From: Myxococcales bacterium
GTDB taxonomy: Bacteria > Myxococcota_A > Polyangia > Polyangiales > SLQV01
DNA: 52,243 nucleotides
NCBI GenBank assembly: GCA_007124745.1
Contig: SLEO01000007.1
Coordinates: forward strand, 1-52,243
Direction: 5' to 3'
In this document: one piece after another, positions 43,018 to 52,243 of the stretch
Numbering within the stretch: the first letter of the stretch is position 1
How the letters are laid out: every line of letters begins with the position of its first letter
The notes under the pieces: generated by a model
The model's input: only the letters and a program-made list of their open reading frames with translations
What the model was told of the DNA's origin: nothing
Databases searched by the model: none
Made by a program: the position numbers and the translations under genes

Positions 43018-44184
43018 TTGCCTTTCGGAGCCGGTGGTGAGCCTGATAGCCTAAGGGTCGTGCTCAAGGACTCGTCGCTCGCATCACTCCCGTGGCTCAC
43101 CATTGACAGCGCACTGCTGCCAGAGAAGGTGCGCAAGTTCACCTCGGCGCAGGCACCCGCGCCCGCACGTAACATGGCCGCGCGGGGCGCGTTACCGTTG
43201 GCGGCGGTCGAACTTGTCAGCACGCTCGCCGCACTTGCGGGCGGTACGGACGAGGCAGCCGACATTGCGCGCGAAAGCCTCGGCAACCTCCCGCTGCCCG
43301 TCCTGAGCGAGGCGGCGCAGAAAGTGGCGCTTGCCGAAGCCCTGCAGGCCGTCGCCAAAGCCTGCGCATCTCACGCGGAGGTGTTGCGTTTGGTGGCGGC
43401 CAATAAAGCCACCAATGACCAGACGTTTGCGGCGCTCGCCACATCCACGGACCGGGAAACGCTCGATATTCTCGCGAATAACCAAGTTCGCATGCTGGCC
43501 GTACCTCGCGCTATCGAATGCCTCTACTTCAACCCCCTTGCGTCCTCCGTTTTACTCGACCGCTTGATCGAACTCGCTGGACGCCAGGGGGTAGCACTGA
43601 ACGCCATTCCCGCGCTTGAGGAGCACATGGCGGCGCTGGCGGAGGCTGAAGAGGATGCCGCGCTTGCCGCGGATGCCTTCGAAGCCACGCTCATGGAAGC
43701 GCAACTGGCCGCGAACGGCGAAAGCGAAGTCGCCGACGAGGAAGGCGCCGCAGAAGCACTTGAGGATGCCAAATCCAAACCCATCGCCACGCTTATTGGC
43801 AAGATGAACATGGCGCAGAAGATTCGCCTCGCCACCCTGGGCAATGCCAGCGCGCGGGCCGTGCTTGTGCGCGACGGTTCCAAGAACGTGGCACTTGCGG
43901 CGATCAAGTCACCAGCGGTCAGCGTCGGTGAAGCCACCGCCTACGCGCGCAGCAAGGAGGTCGCGGAGGACGTATTGCGCTTCATCGGCAATAAACGGGA
44001 CTGGCTTCGCTACTACGAGGTGAAGCACGCCTTGGTGGCCAACCCTAAGGCACCGACCGCCCTCGCCCTACGGCTAGTGAACCATCTCCGCGATAAGGAC
44101 ATTCGCGCGCTTTCGACAAGCCGCAATATCCCCGCCGCCGTCAAGAACGCAGCGAGCCAGCGGCTCAAGACCCGTTCAGGCTAA
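43018..44184 (+). CDS. Hypothetical protein, helical-repeat-like
   Basis: 388-aa Ala/Leu-rich ORF, no recognised catalytic motif; start could be GTG near 43060. Confidence 0.7.
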   Translation: MPFGAGGEPDSLRVVLKDSSLASLPWLTIDSALLPEKVRKFTSAQAPAPARNMAARGALPLAAVELVSTLAALAGGTDEAADIARESLGNLPLPVLSEAAQKVALAEALQAVAKACASHAEVLRLVAANKATNDQTFAALATSTDRETLDILANNQVRMLAVPRAIECLYFNPLASSVLLDRLIELAGRQGVALNAIPALEEHMAALAEAEEDAALAADAFEATLMEAQLAANGESEVADEEGAAEALEDAKSKPIATLIGKMNMAQKIRLATLGNASARAVLVRDGSKNVALAAIKSPAVSVGEATAYARSKEVAEDVLRFIGNKRDWLRYYEVKHALVANPKAPTALALRLVNHLRDKDIRALSTSRNIPAAVKNAASQRLKTRSG

Positions 44185-44220: not shown

Positions 44221-45102
44221 TTGAACAAGCGACGTCACTTCGCTTCAGCGCCGCTACGTACTAAGCTCGATGGCGTGTATTCTGAAACTCCGGACGCAAG
44301 CCGGCGGATCACCGTGGCTGACCTCGCGAAGCTCAAAGCCAAGGGTGAAGCGATCGTCGCGGTGTCACTCTACGATGCCTGGATGGCGCGGCTTTTCGAA
44401 GGCGCAGGCGCACATGTGCTGCTCGTCGGCGACTCCCTCGGCATGCTGTTTCAGGGCCAGCGTGACACCGTCAGCGTGACGCTGGAACACGTCATCTATC
44501 ACACGCGGGCGGTGCGCGCGGGCGCCGCGCGGGCGCACGTCGTCGCCGATCTACCCTTCCTCTGGGCGTCCCGCAGTGAAGATGAAGCGCTCGTCGCGCT
44601 CGGGCGCCTGCTGCAGGAAGGTGGCGCGGACAGCGTTAAAATCGAGGCCACTGAGCGCCAAGCTCCGCTCATCGCGCGCGCGGTCGAAGCGGGCATCCCC
44701 ATCATGGCCCACGTCGGCCTAAGGCCGCAGACCGCGCGGACCCTTGGGGGCTACCCTCGCCAGGGCCGCGACGCCGAGAGCGCTGCTGCTATTTGCGCTA
44801 CGGCCGAGGTGCTTGCTGACGCAGGCGCCTACGCCCTTCTCATTGAAAATGTGCCGGATAGCCTCGGCAATGAAATCACGGCTCGCGTGCGTATCCCCAC
44901 CATCGGCATCGGAGCAGGCCCGGGCTGCAGCGGTCAGATACTCGTCGCGCACGATATCCTCGGCTTCTCGGACACGACCCCACCCTTCGCGCGCCCCTTC
45001 GCCAACCTTGGTGCTGAAGCCGCGTCTGCTGCGCAGGCCTACGCCCAGGCGGTCGCGAGCGGCCAGGTCGGCAGCCGACCACCGCCCGCTACGCGTCGCT
45101 AA
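44221..45102 (+). CDS. panB: 3-methyl-2-oxobutanoate hydroxymethyltransferase (TTG start or internal start)
   Basis: SLYDAWMARLFEGAGAHVLLVGDSLGMLFQGQRDTVSVTLEHVIYHTRAV, IPIMAHVGLRPQTARTLGGYPRQGRD, IPTIGIGAGPGCSGQILVAHDILG. Confidence 0.93.
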   Translation: MNKRRHFASAPLRTKLDGVYSETPDASRRITVADLAKLKAKGEAIVAVSLYDAWMARLFEGAGAHVLLVGDSLGMLFQGQRDTVSVTLEHVIYHTRAVRAGAARAHVVADLPFLWASRSEDEALVALGRLLQEGGADSVKIEATERQAPLIARAVEAGIPIMAHVGLRPQTARTLGGYPRQGRDAESAAAICATAEVLADAGAYALLIENVPDSLGNEITARVRIPTIGIGAGPGCSGQILVAHDILGFSDTTPPFARPFANLGAEAASAAQAYAQAVASGQVGSRPPPATRR

Positions 45103-45166
45103 CCGAGTGAGGCAAACGGCGCCGGACTTCAACTGGCATCGCGGCGGAACGCGGATGCGTCACGGG

Positions 45167-46093
45167 TCACGAATGCGCGGATGTGACGGCGAAAGCTTCT
45201 AGGTCTGGACCTAGACCCAGGGCCGCGTTGTCGATCAGGCGGGCGCCACCGACGTAGGCGGCGATGAGACAGCGTGCGTCGGCTCGGAGCGGGCGGTCTT
45301 CCGGCCAGGGCTCCAAGGTTTCCGGGTCAACAATTGCGGCGTAGTCGAGGCGCTCGATGGCGCTTGACGCGCCATGTCCGTCATGAAGCGCGGCGCCCCC
45401 AGCCTGTGCCCCCAACACCTCGTCCACTTGGTTCTGAACGGCGTTCACTGCACGCACGCCCTGTACAAAAGTGGCACGCGCGGCAGCAAGGGCCTCCACG
45501 AGGCGCCGCGCCAGCGGCCGTGTGCTGGGCGTCAGGTAGGCGTTACGCGTCGAGAGGGCTACGCCGTCGTCATCGCGGACGGTTTCGACACCGAGCACCT
45601 TGCAGCCGAGCGCCAGGTCCTCGGCGAGGTGCTGAACGACGCGTAGCTGCTGGAAGTCTTTTTCGCCGAAGGCCACGAGCGTTGGGCGGATCAGGCCGAA
45701 GAGGCGCGCCAGAACCGTGAGCACGCCCTCGAAATGCGCCGGACGGCAGGCGCCTTCCCAACGACTCGCCAGCGGACCGGGCAGGACGCGCGTCTGAAAC
45801 CCAGGCGGATAGAACTCGCCTGCCTCAGGGACAAACACGAAGGCGACGCCCGCCGCTTCGCAAAGCGCCAAGTCCGCCTCCGTCGACCGAGGATAGCGTT
45901 GCCAATCTTCCCCGGGCCCAAACTGCAAGGGGTTCACAAAGATGGAGACCGCTCGCGGCAGACCTGAAGGTCTCAGTGCTTCGATGCACGCGAGGTGCCC
46001 CCGGTGGAGCCCACCCATCGTTGGGACAAGCCCTACCCTGCCGAGCGTTTCCAGCTCCGCCCGCAGCGACGCAACATCTCGAATCACCTTCAC
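45167..46093 (-). CDS. panC: Pantothenate synthetase
   Basis: GLVPTMGGLHRGHLACIEALR, SIFVNPLQFGPGEDWQRYPR, FGEKDFQQLRVVQHLAEDL, DDDGVALSTRNAYL. Confidence 0.93.
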   Translation of the reverse strand: MKVIRDVASLRAELETLGRVGLVPTMGGLHRGHLACIEALRPSGLPRAVSIFVNPLQFGPGEDWQRYPRSTEADLALCEAAGVAFVFVPEAGEFYPPGFQTRVLPGPLASRWEGACRPAHFEGVLTVLARLFGLIRPTLVAFGEKDFQQLRVVQHLAEDLALGCKVLGVETVRDDDGVALSTRNAYLTPSTRPLARRLVEALAAARATFVQGVRAVNAVQNQVDEVLGAQAGGAALHDGHGASSAIERLDYAAIVDPETLEPWPEDRPLRADARCLIAAYVGGARLIDNAALGLGPDLEAFAVTSAHS

Positions 46094-46141: not shown

Positions 46142-48253
46142 CTACTGACCTTCGGCGCGCAAATCGAAGCTCCAAAAGCGGTCTTTGGCACGGGCCTCGA
46201 CCCGGCGATGCTCGATGACTGAGCCGAGGCTCGGGTGGCGCACTTCGACTTCGACGACCGCATCGACTTCGAGGCCTGGCACCTCCGCTGGCGCAGCGCC
46301 GTAGGGCACGCCGTTGACAAAAACAGAGGCGCCCGCGGGGGATGAGAGGATAGTCGCGGAAACACTGAGCGGCTTGAGGACCACGCGCAGCGGGGAGAGC
46401 TGTCCGGGTTCCACAAAGATACGTTCAGGTACGTAGCCGTCCTTGACAAGCGTCACCTCGGCGAGGCCACCCTCTCCCCGGCCGACTTCGATATTGGCCG
46501 GGGTTTGGTCACCATGCGCTACCCCGTTGACCTGGATATGTGCACCCGTTGGCTCGGACTCGATGCGAACCGTCGCCGAAGAAAGCCGCACCCACATTAC
46601 AACGGCCGCCACGAGGAGCACGAGTACAGCACCAGCAGTGAGCGCAAGCAGTCCCGCGCGCGTGCTTGCTTGGGGACGTTCGGTCCGCAGCGCTGCGGGA
46701 GCTTGGGCGCGCACGTCATGCCGCGGAGCTGAAGGCGCTTGGGCAGGTTCCGGGGATGGGCTTGGTGCACCACCTTCACTGATAGGAACGCGGACACGCG
46801 AAGGATTCGTAGGGAATGAGACGTCGCCGGCTGACTGGGAGGGGCCGCGGTCGCCAAAGCCGAGACCTACGTCACTTGAGTCGTCCGTGCTGTCGAGATC
46901 CTCGAGACCGCGAATCAGCGGCTTGACCACCGTGCTCTGAGATTTGCGGCGAACCCGCAGTTGTCTCAGCGCTTCCGCGAAGCGGTCAGGTTCCGCCGCA
47001 GGCTCGGCGGCCGCGGGCGCTTTGACGTCGGCCACCGGAATAAGCGAGAGCACGTTCGCTTTGGCGGGAGCGTTCGCCTGTGCCGCGATGTCCTCGTCCA
47101 TGAGCAGTGACGTGGCCGAGCGGCTGAGGCTCCCAGCACTCGCCAACATCGCCTCCCGAACGGCCTGCCGTATGTCGATATCCGGCTCGGAGCGCGGCGA
47201 GTCCTGCGGCGGCGAAACGCTACTGCGTTTCCGAGACAACCCCGGAGGCCGTTCGGAGCGCAGTAAGGTTTTCCAACGCGGCTTGCTCTGACTGGCCGAC
47301 GCGGTGATGGGCGGGTCACCCTTGAGGAGCTTGCGGATGTAGTTGGCGAGCTCCGCTGGCGCAAACCCGGGAGAGCGCGCGTGCAAACACGTAAGGATGG
47401 CTTGCTCGAAGGCCTTGGCCGAGGCGTAGCGTTTGTTTGGGTCCCGCCGCAAGGCGCCCATCACTAGGGCATCAAGGGCCGGGTCAAGGTCCGAACGGCG
47501 GACCGAGGGTGGGGGGATGTCTGCGGCCCGGACGGCGGTCAGCAGCAGCGGGAAGTTGGGCTCGTTGTAGAGCAAACCGCCGGTCAATAGCTCGTAGAGC
47601 ACCACGCCTGCGGAGAAGACATCGGTGCGGGCGTCCACGGGAACGCCCTTAGACTGCTCCGGCGACATGTAATGGTATTTGCCCTTAATGACGCCGTCTT
47701 CGGTCTCGAACGCGGTCATCGCCGCCTTCGCGATGCCGAAATCCACTAGCTTCACCTCGCCATCTCGGCTGACAACGATGTTTTGCGGCGAGATATCTCG
47801 GTGAACGATAGCGAGAGGCTTACCGTCTTGGTCGCGCTTTTCGTGGGCGTAAGTCAGGCCCGAGCAGACCTGGGCGACGATGAAAAGCGCAAGTTCGATA
47901 GGAAGCGGTTGCTTCGCTTTGCGCGCCTTGAGACCGAGTCGATAGAGGTCGGCCCCTTCGACGTACTCCATCACGATGCAGTAGGTGCCGTCGATACAGC
48001 ACAGGTCATACACCTGGGCGATGTTCACCTGCGTCAGGTGAACGAGCAGCTTGGCTTCAGCAACAAGCGAGTTAATGAACTCGGGATCTTCGGCGTAGCG
48101 AGGGTGGATCACCTTGATGGCGACGAGCTTCTCAAAGCCCCCCACCCCCAGGGTGTTCGCGACATATATCTCGGCCATCCCGCCGACGGCGAGTCGCTTG
48201 AGCAGCTGATACGGCCCAAACCGCGAAGGCAAGTTATGTCCTAGTCCGCCCAC
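46142..48253 (-). CDS. Ser/Thr protein kinase with TM and C-terminal PEGA-like domains
   Basis: VGGMAEIYVAN, VAIKVIHP, IVHRDISPQNIVVS, VDFGIAKAAM, HYMSPEQSKG; IESEPTGAHIQVNGVAHGDQTPANIEV and LSSPAGASVFVNGVPYGAAPAEV PEGA repeats. Confidence 0.92.
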   Translation of the reverse strand: MGGLGHNLPSRFGPYQLLKRLAVGGMAEIYVANTLGVGGFEKLVAIKVIHPRYAEDPEFINSLVAEAKLLVHLTQVNIAQVYDLCCIDGTYCIVMEYVEGADLYRLGLKARKAKQPLPIELALFIVAQVCSGLTYAHEKRDQDGKPLAIVHRDISPQNIVVSRDGEVKLVDFGIAKAAMTAFETEDGVIKGKYHYMSPEQSKGVPVDARTDVFSAGVVLYELLTGGLLYNEPNFPLLLTAVRAADIPPPSVRRSDLDPALDALVMGALRRDPNKRYASAKAFEQAILTCLHARSPGFAPAELANYIRKLLKGDPPITASASQSKPRWKTLLRSERPPGLSRKRSSVSPPQDSPRSEPDIDIRQAVREAMLASAGSLSRSATSLLMDEDIAAQANAPAKANVLSLIPVADVKAPAAAEPAAEPDRFAEALRQLRVRRKSQSTVVKPLIRGLEDLDSTDDSSDVGLGFGDRGPSQSAGDVSFPTNPSRVRVPISEGGAPSPSPEPAQAPSAPRHDVRAQAPAALRTERPQASTRAGLLALTAGAVLVLLVAAVVMWVRLSSATVRIESEPTGAHIQVNGVAHGDQTPANIEVGRGEGGLAEVTLVKDGYVPERIFVEPGQLSPLRVVLKPLSVSATILSSPAGASVFVNGVPYGAAPAEVPGLEVDAVVEVEVRHPSLGSVIEHRRVEARAKDRFWSFDLRAEGQ

Positions 48254-48711: not shown

Positions 48712-48846
48712 CTAGCGGCGGCGGCCGAGGCGGCGGCTCTGCATGCCATTCACGCGGCGACGCTCTTTCGCCTTCAGCTTGGCGGTGTGGCGAGCGCACT
48801 TGGTGCGCGAAGGGCGACGAGACTTTTTACTAATCGGAAGATACAT
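48712..48846 (-). CDS. Very basic 44-aa protein (absent from supplied ORF track)
   Basis: MYLPISKKSRRPSRTKCARHTAKLKAKERRRVNGMQSRRLGRRR*; GAGG upstream of ATG; 43 nt downstream of tRNA-Phe on the same strand. Confidence 0.65.
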   Translation of the reverse strand: MYLPISKKSRRPSRTKCARHTAKLKAKERRRVNGMQSRRLGRRR

Positions 48847-48889
48847 GGGGAAACCTCAAGCGCTGGGGTCAGCGTGTCCGAACCCGGGG

Positions 48890-48962
48890 TGCCCAGAGAC
48901 GGATTCGAACCGCCGACACGAGGATTTTCAATCCTCTGCTCTACCAACTGAGCTATCTGGGC
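48890..48962 (-). tRNA. tRNA-Phe(GAA); 3' CCA not encoded
   Basis: GCCCAGATAGCTCAGTTGGTAGAGCAGAGGATTGAAAATCCTCGTGTCGGCGGTTCGAATCCGTCTCTGGGCA: full cloverleaf, anticodon GAA; next bases CCC. Confidence 0.96.
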
Positions 48963-48973
48963 CGCGGCGCGCT

Positions 48974-49001
48974 AGGATGCCCGACGCTCCCTTTTTGTCA
49001 A
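48974..49001 (-). promoter_or_regulatory. Predicted sigma70-type promoter for tRNA-Phe
   Basis: Minus strand TTGACA (48996-49001), 16-bp spacer, CATCCT (48974-48979), about 12 bp from the tRNA 5' end. Confidence 0.5.
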
Positions 49002-49021
49002 GGACAGCAACTCGGACGCCC

Positions 49022-50362
49022 GTGAAAGCCTCTTCCGACGCACCTCAGCAGGCCCTTGATGCACACGAATGTGGTGCTGTCTCGGCGCGGCGTACTCGCC
49101 GCTACGGCGCGACCGCCGCGCCGATTTGGGCACGCGCGCACGGCACACAGCTTCGCGACGCAACGGGCCGCACCTACCTCGACCTGACGAGTTCTTTTGG
49201 AGCAGCCCCCCTGGGCCAGACCAACCTGCGGTGGCTCGCAGCACTCGTGAAGCAAGGGCTCACCCTCACCCATGGCCTTGGTGACCTTCACCCCAACGCT
49301 GCCAAGGCCCGCTTGCTCGCCGCACTTGGAGCGCTTGCCCCCTGGCCGAACGCTCGGGTCATGCTGGGCCTTAACGGCGCAGATGCGATCGACGCGGCGC
49401 TGAAAACCGCGCTGCTCGCCACAGGCAGGCCGCATGTGGTGGCTTTTCGCGGCGGCTATCACGGACTGATGCTGGGACCGCTTGCCGTGTGCGGCCTGAG
49501 CGATGCATTCAGGCAGCCCTTTGCTGCAGCGCTACGCCTGAAGGTCTCCTGGCTCGATTTTCCGACCACAGCGCAGGACGCCGAGGCCACGTTGGAAGCG
49601 TTCGCTTCCCTTCTACGGCGGCCAAAACCTCCAGGCCTTGTGCTGTTTGAGCCGATACTCGGCCGCGGGGGGGTCACGCGCCCCGCCGATGGTTTCTTGG
49701 CGCAGCTAACCCACCTTGCCCGCAAGCACGGCTGCCTCAGCGCCGCCGACGAGATCTTGACGGGGCTCGGGCGGACCGGCGTGTGCTGGGAGAGCACCGC
49801 GCAGGGCGCCCTCCCCGACATGCTGTGTGCGGGCAAGGCACTGGGGGCGGGGCTACCTATCAGCGCGCTGCTGCTCAACCCGAAAAGCGCCGAGGCCTGG
49901 TCGGAGCGTGGGGCGGCCCTCGGCGCCCTGCACACCGCGACCTACTTCGGCTCACCTCTCTTATGCGCGGCGGCCCTCGCCTATCTGGAGGCGTTGCAGC
50001 GGCCGAGCTTTGTGCAGCAGGTGCGCGCCGCCGGCGAAGCAATGCTTTGCCACTTGCGCCGTGCGCTCAGCCCCCTTGGCGATACCGTTCGGGTGGTCGG
50101 GCGGGGTCTGCTCATCGGCATCATATTTGAGAACGGCCCGATCGCTTTGGCCGCACTGGGCAGGTTGCGAGAGCGCGGCATCTTGGCGCTGCTCGCTGGC
50201 GCATCCGGCGAGGTCCTCCAACTACTGCCGCCGCTCAATCTCAGCGCGGGTGCCTACGTACGCATGAGCCACGCCGTGGCGGACGCTATTCTCGGGGCGG
50301 AGGGAACGCTCGCGCAGCGGCTCGAATCGGCTAGGCCAGAGACCGATGATGCGGCTGCCTGA
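49022..50362 (+). CDS. Class III PLP-dependent aminotransferase
   Basis: GTG start after the tRNA; DATGRTYLDLTSSFGAAPLG, GLNGADAIDAALKTAL, FRGGYHGLMLG, LSAADEILTGLGRTG, CAGKALGAGLPISALLL (Lys). ORF-track start at 48743 runs through the tRNA and was rejected. Confidence 0.85.
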   Translation: MKASSDAPQQALDAHECGAVSARRTRRYGATAAPIWARAHGTQLRDATGRTYLDLTSSFGAAPLGQTNLRWLAALVKQGLTLTHGLGDLHPNAAKARLLAALGALAPWPNARVMLGLNGADAIDAALKTALLATGRPHVVAFRGGYHGLMLGPLAVCGLSDAFRQPFAAALRLKVSWLDFPTTAQDAEATLEAFASLLRRPKPPGLVLFEPILGRGGVTRPADGFLAQLTHLARKHGCLSAADEILTGLGRTGVCWESTAQGALPDMLCAGKALGAGLPISALLLNPKSAEAWSERGAALGALHTATYFGSPLLCAAALAYLEALQRPSFVQQVRAAGEAMLCHLRRALSPLGDTVRVVGRGLLIGIIFENGPIALAALGRLRERGILALLAGASGEVLQLLPPLNLSAGAYVRMSHAVADAILGAEGTLAQRLESARPETDDAAA

Positions 50363-51455
50363 ACCCCTACGTTCGCAGGTACTCGGCGCGCTCCAAGTGA
50401 CGGAGTCCGATGCACTTCCTAACTTCCATGCCCTCTTGGCGGCGTTGAAGGCCTGGCAGGCTGAGCGGAGCCCTGCACTCGCGCGGCTCTTCGCCTTCGG
50501 CAGTGACCTGCCCGCACCTATCAGTCTTTTCCGCGACGGTAGCCTCGCAAACCCAGAAGCGGGGGTGCGGGCGAGTGAAGGAGGCCTGCGCTTCGAAAGC
50601 TCGGGCACCACGGCGGCGGAGCGAGCGGTGCACGCGCTCGCGGAAGCCACCTTCTATGACACCGCCGCCTTGGCCTGGGGCCGCGCTCATGTGCTCAGCG
50701 GCGCACTCCCCTCAACTTGGCTGCTGCTTGTTCCCAACCCGGTCGAGCAACCGACATCTTCGTTGGGTCACATGCTCGCGACCTTCCGCCGTGCGTCGGC
50801 GCCAGCGGCGGTGCACTGGCTCGGTGTCGAACAGCCCGCGGCGTCCGCGATGCAGCTCGCCAAACTTGCAGAGGCGCGCCAACCGGTGGCTGTCTTTGCA
50901 ACCGCGTTTGCGCTTGCGGATGCCCTCGATGCCCTCCCAGAGAGGGTCCTTCTCGCGCCTGGAAGCCGCGTCATGCAAACCGGCGGCTACAAGGGCCGCA
51001 GGCGCGCCCTGAGCTTTGACGAACTCGCCCAACGCGTAGAGGCACGTCTCGGACCCGCGCCCTTGTGGTCCGAGTACGGCATGACCGAACTCGCATCGCA
51101 GCTCTACGCCCCGGACCCCCGCGAGGGGACGACGTTGCCCTCCGGGCAAGGCATCAACGACGGGGCGCGCCCCCTCCCCGCTGTGCGCAGCACGGCGCCC
51201 CTTGAGCCCCGCTACTGCGCGCCGCCCTGGGTGCGCCTGAGCATCCGCAACGCACAGACCCTCGCAGTACTGCCGCCAGAGCAGGAGGGGCTGATTCAGA
51301 TAGACGACCTAGCGAACGTCTACGGCTGCGCTTCGATACTTACGGAAGATATCGGTATGCTGACGGCAGAGGGGACGCTGCTGCTACGCGGCCGGGCATC
51401 CCAAAGCCCCCTCCGCGGCTGCTCGCTCGCATCCGAGACGGACGGGGGCGTATGA
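50346..51455 (+). CDS. LuxE-like acyl-protein synthetase / acyl-transferring protein
   Basis: LRFESSGTTAAERAVHAL, SRVMQTGGYKGRRRALSFDELAQRVEARLGPAPLWSEYGMTELASQLYAPD, DIGMLTAEGTLLLRGRA. Confidence 0.75.
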   Translation: MMRLPEPLRSQVLGALQVTESDALPNFHALLAALKAWQAERSPALARLFAFGSDLPAPISLFRDGSLANPEAGVRASEGGLRFESSGTTAAERAVHALAEATFYDTAALAWGRAHVLSGALPSTWLLLVPNPVEQPTSSLGHMLATFRRASAPAAVHWLGVEQPAASAMQLAKLAEARQPVAVFATAFALADALDALPERVLLAPGSRVMQTGGYKGRRRALSFDELAQRVEARLGPAPLWSEYGMTELASQLYAPDPREGTTLPSGQGINDGARPLPAVRSTAPLEPRYCAPPWVRLSIRNAQTLAVLPPEQEGLIQIDDLANVYGCASILTEDIGMLTAEGTLLLRGRASQSPLRGCSLASETDGGV

Positions 51456-52243
51456 GCGCCACAAACGACGGCGCCGCCCCAGGCATCGACGCTGGGCGGG
51501 GGCAGAAACCGAGCGAAGATGTCACCGAACCTGACCGCTATCCAGCTCCTACACCGAGCGAGGAGGCTGCATCGCCGAGCCATCGACGCGCGCCCGCGGC
51601 GCCCGGTGGATATCAAGACGCCGAAGCGATCATCGACCGCCTCGCGCTGAGCACTCCACCGCGCCTCCCCGCACGTCACCGAATACCCGTCGCGTTGTTT
51701 CTTGGGGAGACGGTTCCTCAGGCTTACGCACCGATAGTACTGGGCGCACTCTGCGTCGCCTCCCGGCTAACGATCAAGCTCCCAAGTTCCCGCGCATATT
51801 CGGACCAAGACACGGCGGGAACGCGCTTGCGAACCTTTGTCGGCGCCTGCGTTGACGCACTTCAGCGGACAACGCCCGACGCTCAACGCGTCCCTGTTGC
51901 GTGGCTAGAGAGGCGCCTCGATGCAGCGGAACTCGACGCCTTCTGCGCAGCGCATGCACTGGTCTACGCCCAAGGCGATGAAGCCCTGCTGCACGCACTA
52001 CGTCAGCGCCTGGGCGTGAGCCGCCTCATCGAGCGCGGCCCGGCTTACGGCGCAGCGGTCATCGACCTGCGCCACGCCCGTACCCCGACCGCCTACGCAG
52101 TGCTTGCGGCCCAGCTAGCCGCCGACTTCTTCGGTTCGGACGGGCTCGGCTGCATGCACCCGCGCACAGCGGTGTGCATCGGTGAACCCGTCGAGTGCGC
52201 ACGCTTTGTGGAGGCGCTGCGCGCCACGCAGCGCGACGCTCCC
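51452..52243 (+). CDS. LuxC-like acyl reductase (aldehyde dehydrogenase superfamily), partial at window edge
   Basis: ATG 51452 in an ATGA overlap with the LuxE-like stop; VALFLGETVPQAYAPIVLGALCVASRLTIKLPSS, RGPAYGAAVIDLRHARTPTAYAVLAAQLAADFFGSDGLGCMHPRTAVCIGEP (candidate catalytic Cys). Confidence 0.65.
   Translation, partial: MSATNDGAAPGIDAGRGQKPSEDVTEPDRYPAPTPSEEAASPSHRRAPAAPGGYQDAEAIIDRLALSTPPRLPARHRIPVALFLGETVPQAYAPIVLGALCVASRLTIKLPSSRAYSDQDTAGTRLRTFVGACVDALQRTTPDAQRVPVAWLERRLDAAELDAFCAAHALVYAQGDEALLHALRQRLGVSRLIERGPAYGAAVIDLRHARTPTAYAVLAAQLAADFFGSDGLGCMHPRTAVCIGEPVECARFVEALRATQRDAP

Follow-up and report, generated by a model that had tools for sequence, protein, structure and literature searches.

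A LuxE-LuxC-aminotransferase operon conserved across Myxococcota: a probable carboxylate-to-amine pathway of Lux-type enzymes

The analysed window, that is, the whole 52,243-nucleotide stretch of contig SLEO01000007.1 from a Myxococcales bacterium (GCA_007124745.1), ends with three consecutive plus-strand genes that encode a class III PLP aminotransferase (AT), a LuxE-like acid-activating enzyme and a LuxC-like acyl reductase (Table 1). The coordinates of the open reading frames (ORFs) confirm the 17 bp and 4 bp (ATGA) overlaps between these genes that were reported in the preliminary description of this DNA. The AT frame is open back to position 48743, and because a tRNA-Phe gene occupies positions 48888-48962 of the minus strand, the true start of the AT is either the ATG at 48977 or the GTG at 49022; AT residues are numbered here from the latter, as chosen previously. 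Scans of the locus for promoters and terminators found none. The luxC-like frame is still open at the contig end (52243), and additional operon parts had been suspected beyond it, a suspicion that the relatives do not support. In a genome of the same genus (G347, locus L029), the order is AT, LuxE, LuxC, with the next gene located on the opposite strand; therefore, the operon lacks no part and is complete at three genes. Other relatives likewise give no sign of additional parts. The LuxC homolog in L029 (6787-7986) is complete, comprising 399 aa with 60% identity to the window LuxC.

Upstream of the operon, the window contains a 388-aa ORF without a Pfam match (43018-44184), a plus-strand panB-like gene (Pfam PF02548) facing a minus-strand ORF that, judging by eye, we take to be PanC-like (44221-46093), and, after this pair, a minus-strand gene for a Ser/Thr kinase with PEGA domains (46142-48253).

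Table 1 Features of the operon in the window
Feature	Position	Strand	Evidence
Class III PLP aminotransferase (AT)	48977..50362, start 48977 ATG or 49022 GTG	+	PF00202 E 1.2e-64
AT/luxE-like overlap, 17 bp	50346..50362	+	ORF ends
LuxE-like acid-activating enzyme (acyl-protein synthetase family)	50346..51455	+	orthologue profile vs 7xc6_E 1.2e-25; PF04443 in 20/21 relatives
ATGA stop/start overlap, luxE-like/luxC-like, 4 bp	51452..51455	+	ORF ends
LuxC-like acyl reductase, N-terminal 264 aa, cut at contig end	51452..52243	+	PF05893 in 18/20 relatives; profile vs 7xc6_A 8e-17
Leu149 codon, position of the substrate-carboxylate Arg (OAT Arg180)	49466..49468	+	GabT alignment, 35 orthologues
Arg215 codon, gateway Glu position (OAT Glu235 / YgjG Glu243)	49664..49666	+	YgjG alignment, 35 orthologues
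Lys272 codon, PLP lysine of the AT	49835..49837	+	invariant, 35 orthologues
Cys359 codon (RGCSL) of LuxE-like, equivalent of LuxE Cys364, acyl-transfer site	51420..51422	+	invariant, 35 LuxE sequences
Cys234 codon (GLGCMHP) of LuxC-like, equivalent of LuxC Cys286, acylation site	52151..52153	+	invariant, 29 LuxC sequences

The three family assignments made in the preliminary description hold, for the AT by a direct match to PF00202 and for LuxE and LuxC by way of their relatives. Scanned alone, the window LuxE matches PF04443 under the cut-off (E 0.039) and the window LuxC yields no Pfam match, such that single-sequence Pfam and NCBIfam scans were insufficient to assign either protein, whereas alignments of orthologues sufficed. 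PF04443 is matched by 20 of the 21 LuxE relatives (E<0.01, best 9e-19) and PF05893 by 18 of the 20 LuxC relatives (best 3.8e-37), the LuxC proteins of the window and of the same-genus genome giving no match; because the relatives match, we accept the identity of both proteins although the window sequences alone fall short. The top PDB matches of the orthologue profiles are the LuxE chain (7xc6_E, 1.2e-25) and the LuxC chain (7xc6_A, 8e-17) of the Photobacterium LuxC-LuxE complex, and no acyl-ACP reductase is present among the PDB matches of the reductase profile. A weak Aldedh match was also obtained in Pfam for one LuxC member and for a LuxE-LuxC fusion (L034, see below). Cys359 of the LuxE-like protein is invariant in 35 sequences and aligns with the KGCSL motif of 7xc6_E, and the GC motif of the LuxC-like protein is invariant in 29 sequences and aligns with DQQACFS of 7xc6_A; in the bioluminescence enzymes, the acyl-transfer site of LuxE is Cys364 and the acylation site of LuxC is Cys286, within YDQQACFSTQ (PMC8301110). 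The predicted structure of the LuxE-like protein has an ANL-type fold (pLDDT 70); the model of the truncated window LuxC-like protein (pLDDT 51) is too poor to judge from it whether there is an NAD(P)H-binding fold. Both proteins evolve unusually fast in the window's genus, as indicated by the long stem in the LuxE tree and by the LuxC of this genus being only about 20% identical to LuxC of other families; given this fast evolution, this lineage of small genomes may have changed its substrate.

In addition to the match to PF00202, the PLP lysine and aspartate of the AT, Lys272 and Asp243, as well as Glu210, are invariant in 35 orthologues. In OAT, AcOAT and GABA-AT, an arginine (Arg180 of OAT) holds the substrate carboxylate, and the Glu235-Arg413 pair serves as a gate for the dual use of glutamate (PMC4244111). 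This subgroup signature, that is, the carboxylate arginine and the ion pair, is absent from the 35 operon ATs: the Arg180 position, aligned with the corresponding Arg of GabT, is Leu in 34 and Met in one (Leu149 in the window), the Glu235 position, aligned with YgjG Glu243, is Arg in all 35 (Arg215 in the window), and none carries Arg at the Arg413-equivalent position. Because the Arg180-type residue is lost, the aldehyde substrate probably has no carboxylate at Leu149, which would fit an aldehyde derived from a monocarboxylic acid, and the AT would still take an amino-acid donor, perhaps via Arg215.

A scan of bacterial genomes yielded 20 loci, almost every one of which bears the label Polyangiaceae, Sorangium, Labilithrix, Myxococcales or Deltaproteobacteria, and searches of the phylum added many others; the operon is carried by the cultured Sorangium cellulosum So ce26. 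Of the 379 Myxococcota genomes sampled, 304 encode LuxE of this type (E 1e-8 or better), nearly always in one copy; since some of these copies are weak or of a second type, the figure is an upper bound for the operon itself. Within the window's own order, 70 of the 72 genomes encode LuxE; other families of the same class show a weak LuxE match or none among the genomes listed. The gene order was surveyed in 75 retrieved LuxE loci from 39 Myxococcota families. An AT lies upstream of LuxE in 58 loci (33 families), LuxC lies downstream in 59 (32 families), and both are in place in 48 (28 families), with the AT and LuxE overlapping by exactly 4 bp at 37 of 57 junctions (25 families). Because the same order recurs in dozens of families, the three-gene neighborhood is far beyond chance. 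At three loci (L034, L123 and L130), LuxE and LuxC occupy a single reading frame; in the L034 fusion, PF04443 and PF05893 both score above the cut-off in one 800-aa chain, and in L123, the LuxC part was tested against Pfam. These fused genes (L034 5836-8238, L123 5351-7453, L130 5304-7712) encode chains of about 700-800 aa and adjoin the AT gene.

Among the flanks of the surveyed loci, no constant fourth gene was found. The flanks differ from one lineage to the next; suf and folK-like genes in families f25, f29, f31 and f40, an FHA-GGDEF gene in relatives of Sorangium, and a metallophosphoesterase gene in f3, f5 and f6 are examples. The survey detected neither a transporter as a conserved neighbor nor a conserved neighbor that would name the substrate. 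In the LuxE tree, a branch with moderate support (84/94) separates all operon copies and the dispersed copies, grouped roughly by family, from the LuxE sequences of plasmids and from those of a second Myxococcota type; the placement of the window's genus, on its long stem, is unsure. Under the explanation that we favor below, the pathway would have been inherited mostly vertically in most Myxococcota lineages and would have a conserved, not merely accessory, role.

Other arrangements of these genes were also encountered. At L097 (genome G008, family f26), LuxE and LuxC are located beside genes of the replication-origin type, with the AT elsewhere in the genome. The second LuxE-LuxC type, which forms a separate group in the LuxE tree, occurs without an AT at L101, L106, L107, L119 and L134, where the neighbors presumably include FAD-oxidoreductase-like and further biosynthesis-like genes, the names being guessed from sequence. 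Plasmids of Pantoea, Azospirillum, Lactiplantibacillus and Priestia (L137, L138, L139 and L140) carry LuxE-LuxC pairs that have SDR and ABC-transporter genes behind them or an SLC23-type permease gene in front, an arrangement that suggests import of some carboxylic acid and its reduction, possibly for salvage.

The genes keep company even where they are not adjacent. The AT of the operon type was found in all 15 LuxE-positive genomes tested (E 6e-127 or better), in 12 of them not beside LuxE but at another genomic site (E 6e-127 to 3e-175), and no AT better than 3e-103 was detected in 25 genomes in which LuxE is missing or weak, these LuxE-negative genomes coming mostly from other orders of one class, so that the counts are not phylogenetically independent. 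Where LuxC is not a neighbor of LuxE, most of the genomes encode it at another site, as in families f9, f24, f35, f38, f43 and f61; it was not found in G176 (f52), where LuxE lies close to a contig end. Two fragmented genomes of the window's order, G339 and G291, encode the AT and have no good LuxE match, probably owing to assembly gaps. Together, these observations make a strong case, although not independent evidence, for functional coupling of the AT, LuxE and LuxC even where the genes are dispersed.

Enzymes of the LuxE and LuxC types feed bacterial light production. In the pathway that we propose, the LuxE-like enzyme would use ATP to convert a free carboxylic acid to acyl-AMP and would then bear the acyl group on its C-terminal cysteine, from which this group would pass to the cysteine of LuxC and be reduced with NAD(P)H to the aldehyde; the AT would then aminate the aldehyde, yielding a primary amine, and its donor would probably be glutamate or some other amino acid. 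The acid is probably monofunctional or hydrophobic where the AT holds it (fatty, branched, isoprenoid or aryl); specifying it as long-chain or aryl is a guess because the plasmid relatives accompanied by SDR and transporter genes may reduce other acids, a warning that these families can handle non-fatty ones. Given that LuxE is an ATP-spending acid activator, the reductive direction is far likelier than amine breakdown. Searches of the window's genome (G000) and of G347 for the bacterial-luciferase family PF00296 gave no match, so that luciferase was rejected as the user of the aldehyde in this genus; the preliminary description had noted that luxAB was not in view. On the whole, we think it likely that this is a dedicated carboxylate-to-amine operon, in which LuxE activates, LuxC reduces and the AT aminates. 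The acyl-to-amine reading first drawn from the window thus stands with respect to the families, the neighborhood, the coupling and the lack of luciferase, and gains from the loss of the carboxylate arginine in the AT; the supposition of missing operon parts falls.

The opposite direction deserves consideration because pairs of an AT and an aldehyde dehydrogenase are common in amine breakdown: the AT would deaminate a polyamine or alkylamine, and LuxC, as an enzyme of the aldehyde-dehydrogenase type, would oxidise the resulting aldehyde, a possibility to which the weak Aldedh matches of one LuxC member and of the L034 fusion also point. Such oxidation, however, has no need for ATP-dependent acid activation, although LuxE has been traced more widely than any other gene of the operon; moreover, three lineages have LuxE-LuxC fusions, LuxC is nearest to LuxC and not to aldehyde dehydrogenases, and a transporter is not a conserved neighbor. 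We consider a catabolic operon unlikely. It seems quite unlikely, too, that the aldehyde made by LuxE and LuxC serves another use, such as alcohol formation, next to an AT with a separate role. The plasmid pairs of Pantoea, Azospirillum, Lactiplantibacillus and Priestia, which are accompanied by SDR and transporter genes but not by an AT, as well as the second Myxococcota type, likewise devoid of the AT, are what this scenario would lead one to expect, but it leaves unexplained why the occurrence of the AT subfamily follows that of LuxE even without linkage and why the AT and LuxE genes usually overlap by 4 bp.

Replacement of a housekeeping step, be it in the ArgB/C/D pathway, the GluTR/HemL route to 5-aminolevulinate, or the supply of beta-alanine to panB/panC, is suggested by the fact that ArgD and HemL functions are served by class III ATs, by the location of panB and panC 3-5 kb upstream in the window, and by the lack of ArgD above the curated cut-off in G000, G347 and G049. 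Against this, HemL scores above the cut-off in 14 of 14 genomes, PanD is present in 11 of 14, including G000 and G347, and ArgD exceeds the cut-off in 11 of 14, so that the search for a general stand-in for HemL, PanD or ArgD was mostly negative; furthermore, another AT outscores the operon AT as ArgD in G000, and the carboxylate-binding arginine is lost in the operon AT. Such a replacement is therefore very improbable. Separately, no AT reaches the ArgD cut-off in G000 or in its same-genus relative, and arginine auxotrophy or a divergent ArgD is possible in G000.

The phylum-wide three-gene operon is real, and a carboxylate-to-amine pathway assembled from Lux-type parts is its most likely role. 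Because the operon is near-universal and usually single-copy in Polyangiales and in many other Myxococcota lineages, with only weak matches or none in the sampled other orders of the class, it implies a conserved, seemingly unreported amine; our search of the open literature found no description of it. We raise, as a tentative proposal that may well prove wrong, that most Myxococcota make a conserved primary amine that has so far escaped recognition, an alkylamine of the membrane or envelope or one used in signalling, through a core-metabolism-like LuxE-LuxC-AT pathway in which the ion-pair gate of the AT was rebuilt for carboxylate-free aldehydes. Few biological routes lead from acids to amines, and such routes are useful; the fatty-acid case that our search found described, TamA/TamH, belongs to one pigment pathway. 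The operon offers hundreds of natural three-enzyme sets along with LuxE-LuxC fusions.

Several known systems share parts or logic with the operon. The bioluminescence LuxC-LuxE fatty acid reductase (PDB 7xc6; PMC8301110) belongs to the same families and has the same acyl-carrying cysteines, but the sequences are distant, and the operon contains no luxAB or luxD, the AT being proposed to take the place of luciferase after the aldehyde. In the Aeromonas flagellin glycosylation islands (PMC7874193), luxE and luxC also share a cluster that does not serve bioluminescence; these are glycan clusters with ACP and ketoreductase genes, for which an adjacent class III AT is not described. The ArgB-ArgC-ArgD and GluTR-HemL pathways proceed, by the same logic, from an activated carboxylate to an aldehyde that is aminated by a class III AT, but activation yields an acyl phosphate or a tRNA ester, the activating and reducing enzymes are unrelated to those of the operon, and the AT active site differs. 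PigE of prodigiosin biosynthesis (PDB 4ppm) likewise couples thioester reduction to transamination by a class III AT (PMC8341465), with an AAR-like N-terminal reductase in one chain and without the LuxE that the operon has. In tambjamine biosynthesis of Pseudoalteromonas tunicata, fatty acids are converted to fatty amines by TamA, an ANL-ACP enzyme, together with TamH, in which a class III AT is joined to an AAR-type reductase (PMC9594044, PMC5939613), through the same sequence of adenylate/thioester activation, aldehyde formation and class III transamination. The operon lacks the ANL-ACP activator and the AAR-AT fusion of that system and instead comprises LuxE, a reductase that matches LuxC, and a separate AT, with no ACP and with a phylum-wide spread. 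Since it activates and reduces with enzymes of other families, the operon does not belong to the TamA/TamH or PigE systems; by analogy, it is best read as a LuxE/LuxC counterpart of the TamA/TamH route that would work alike.
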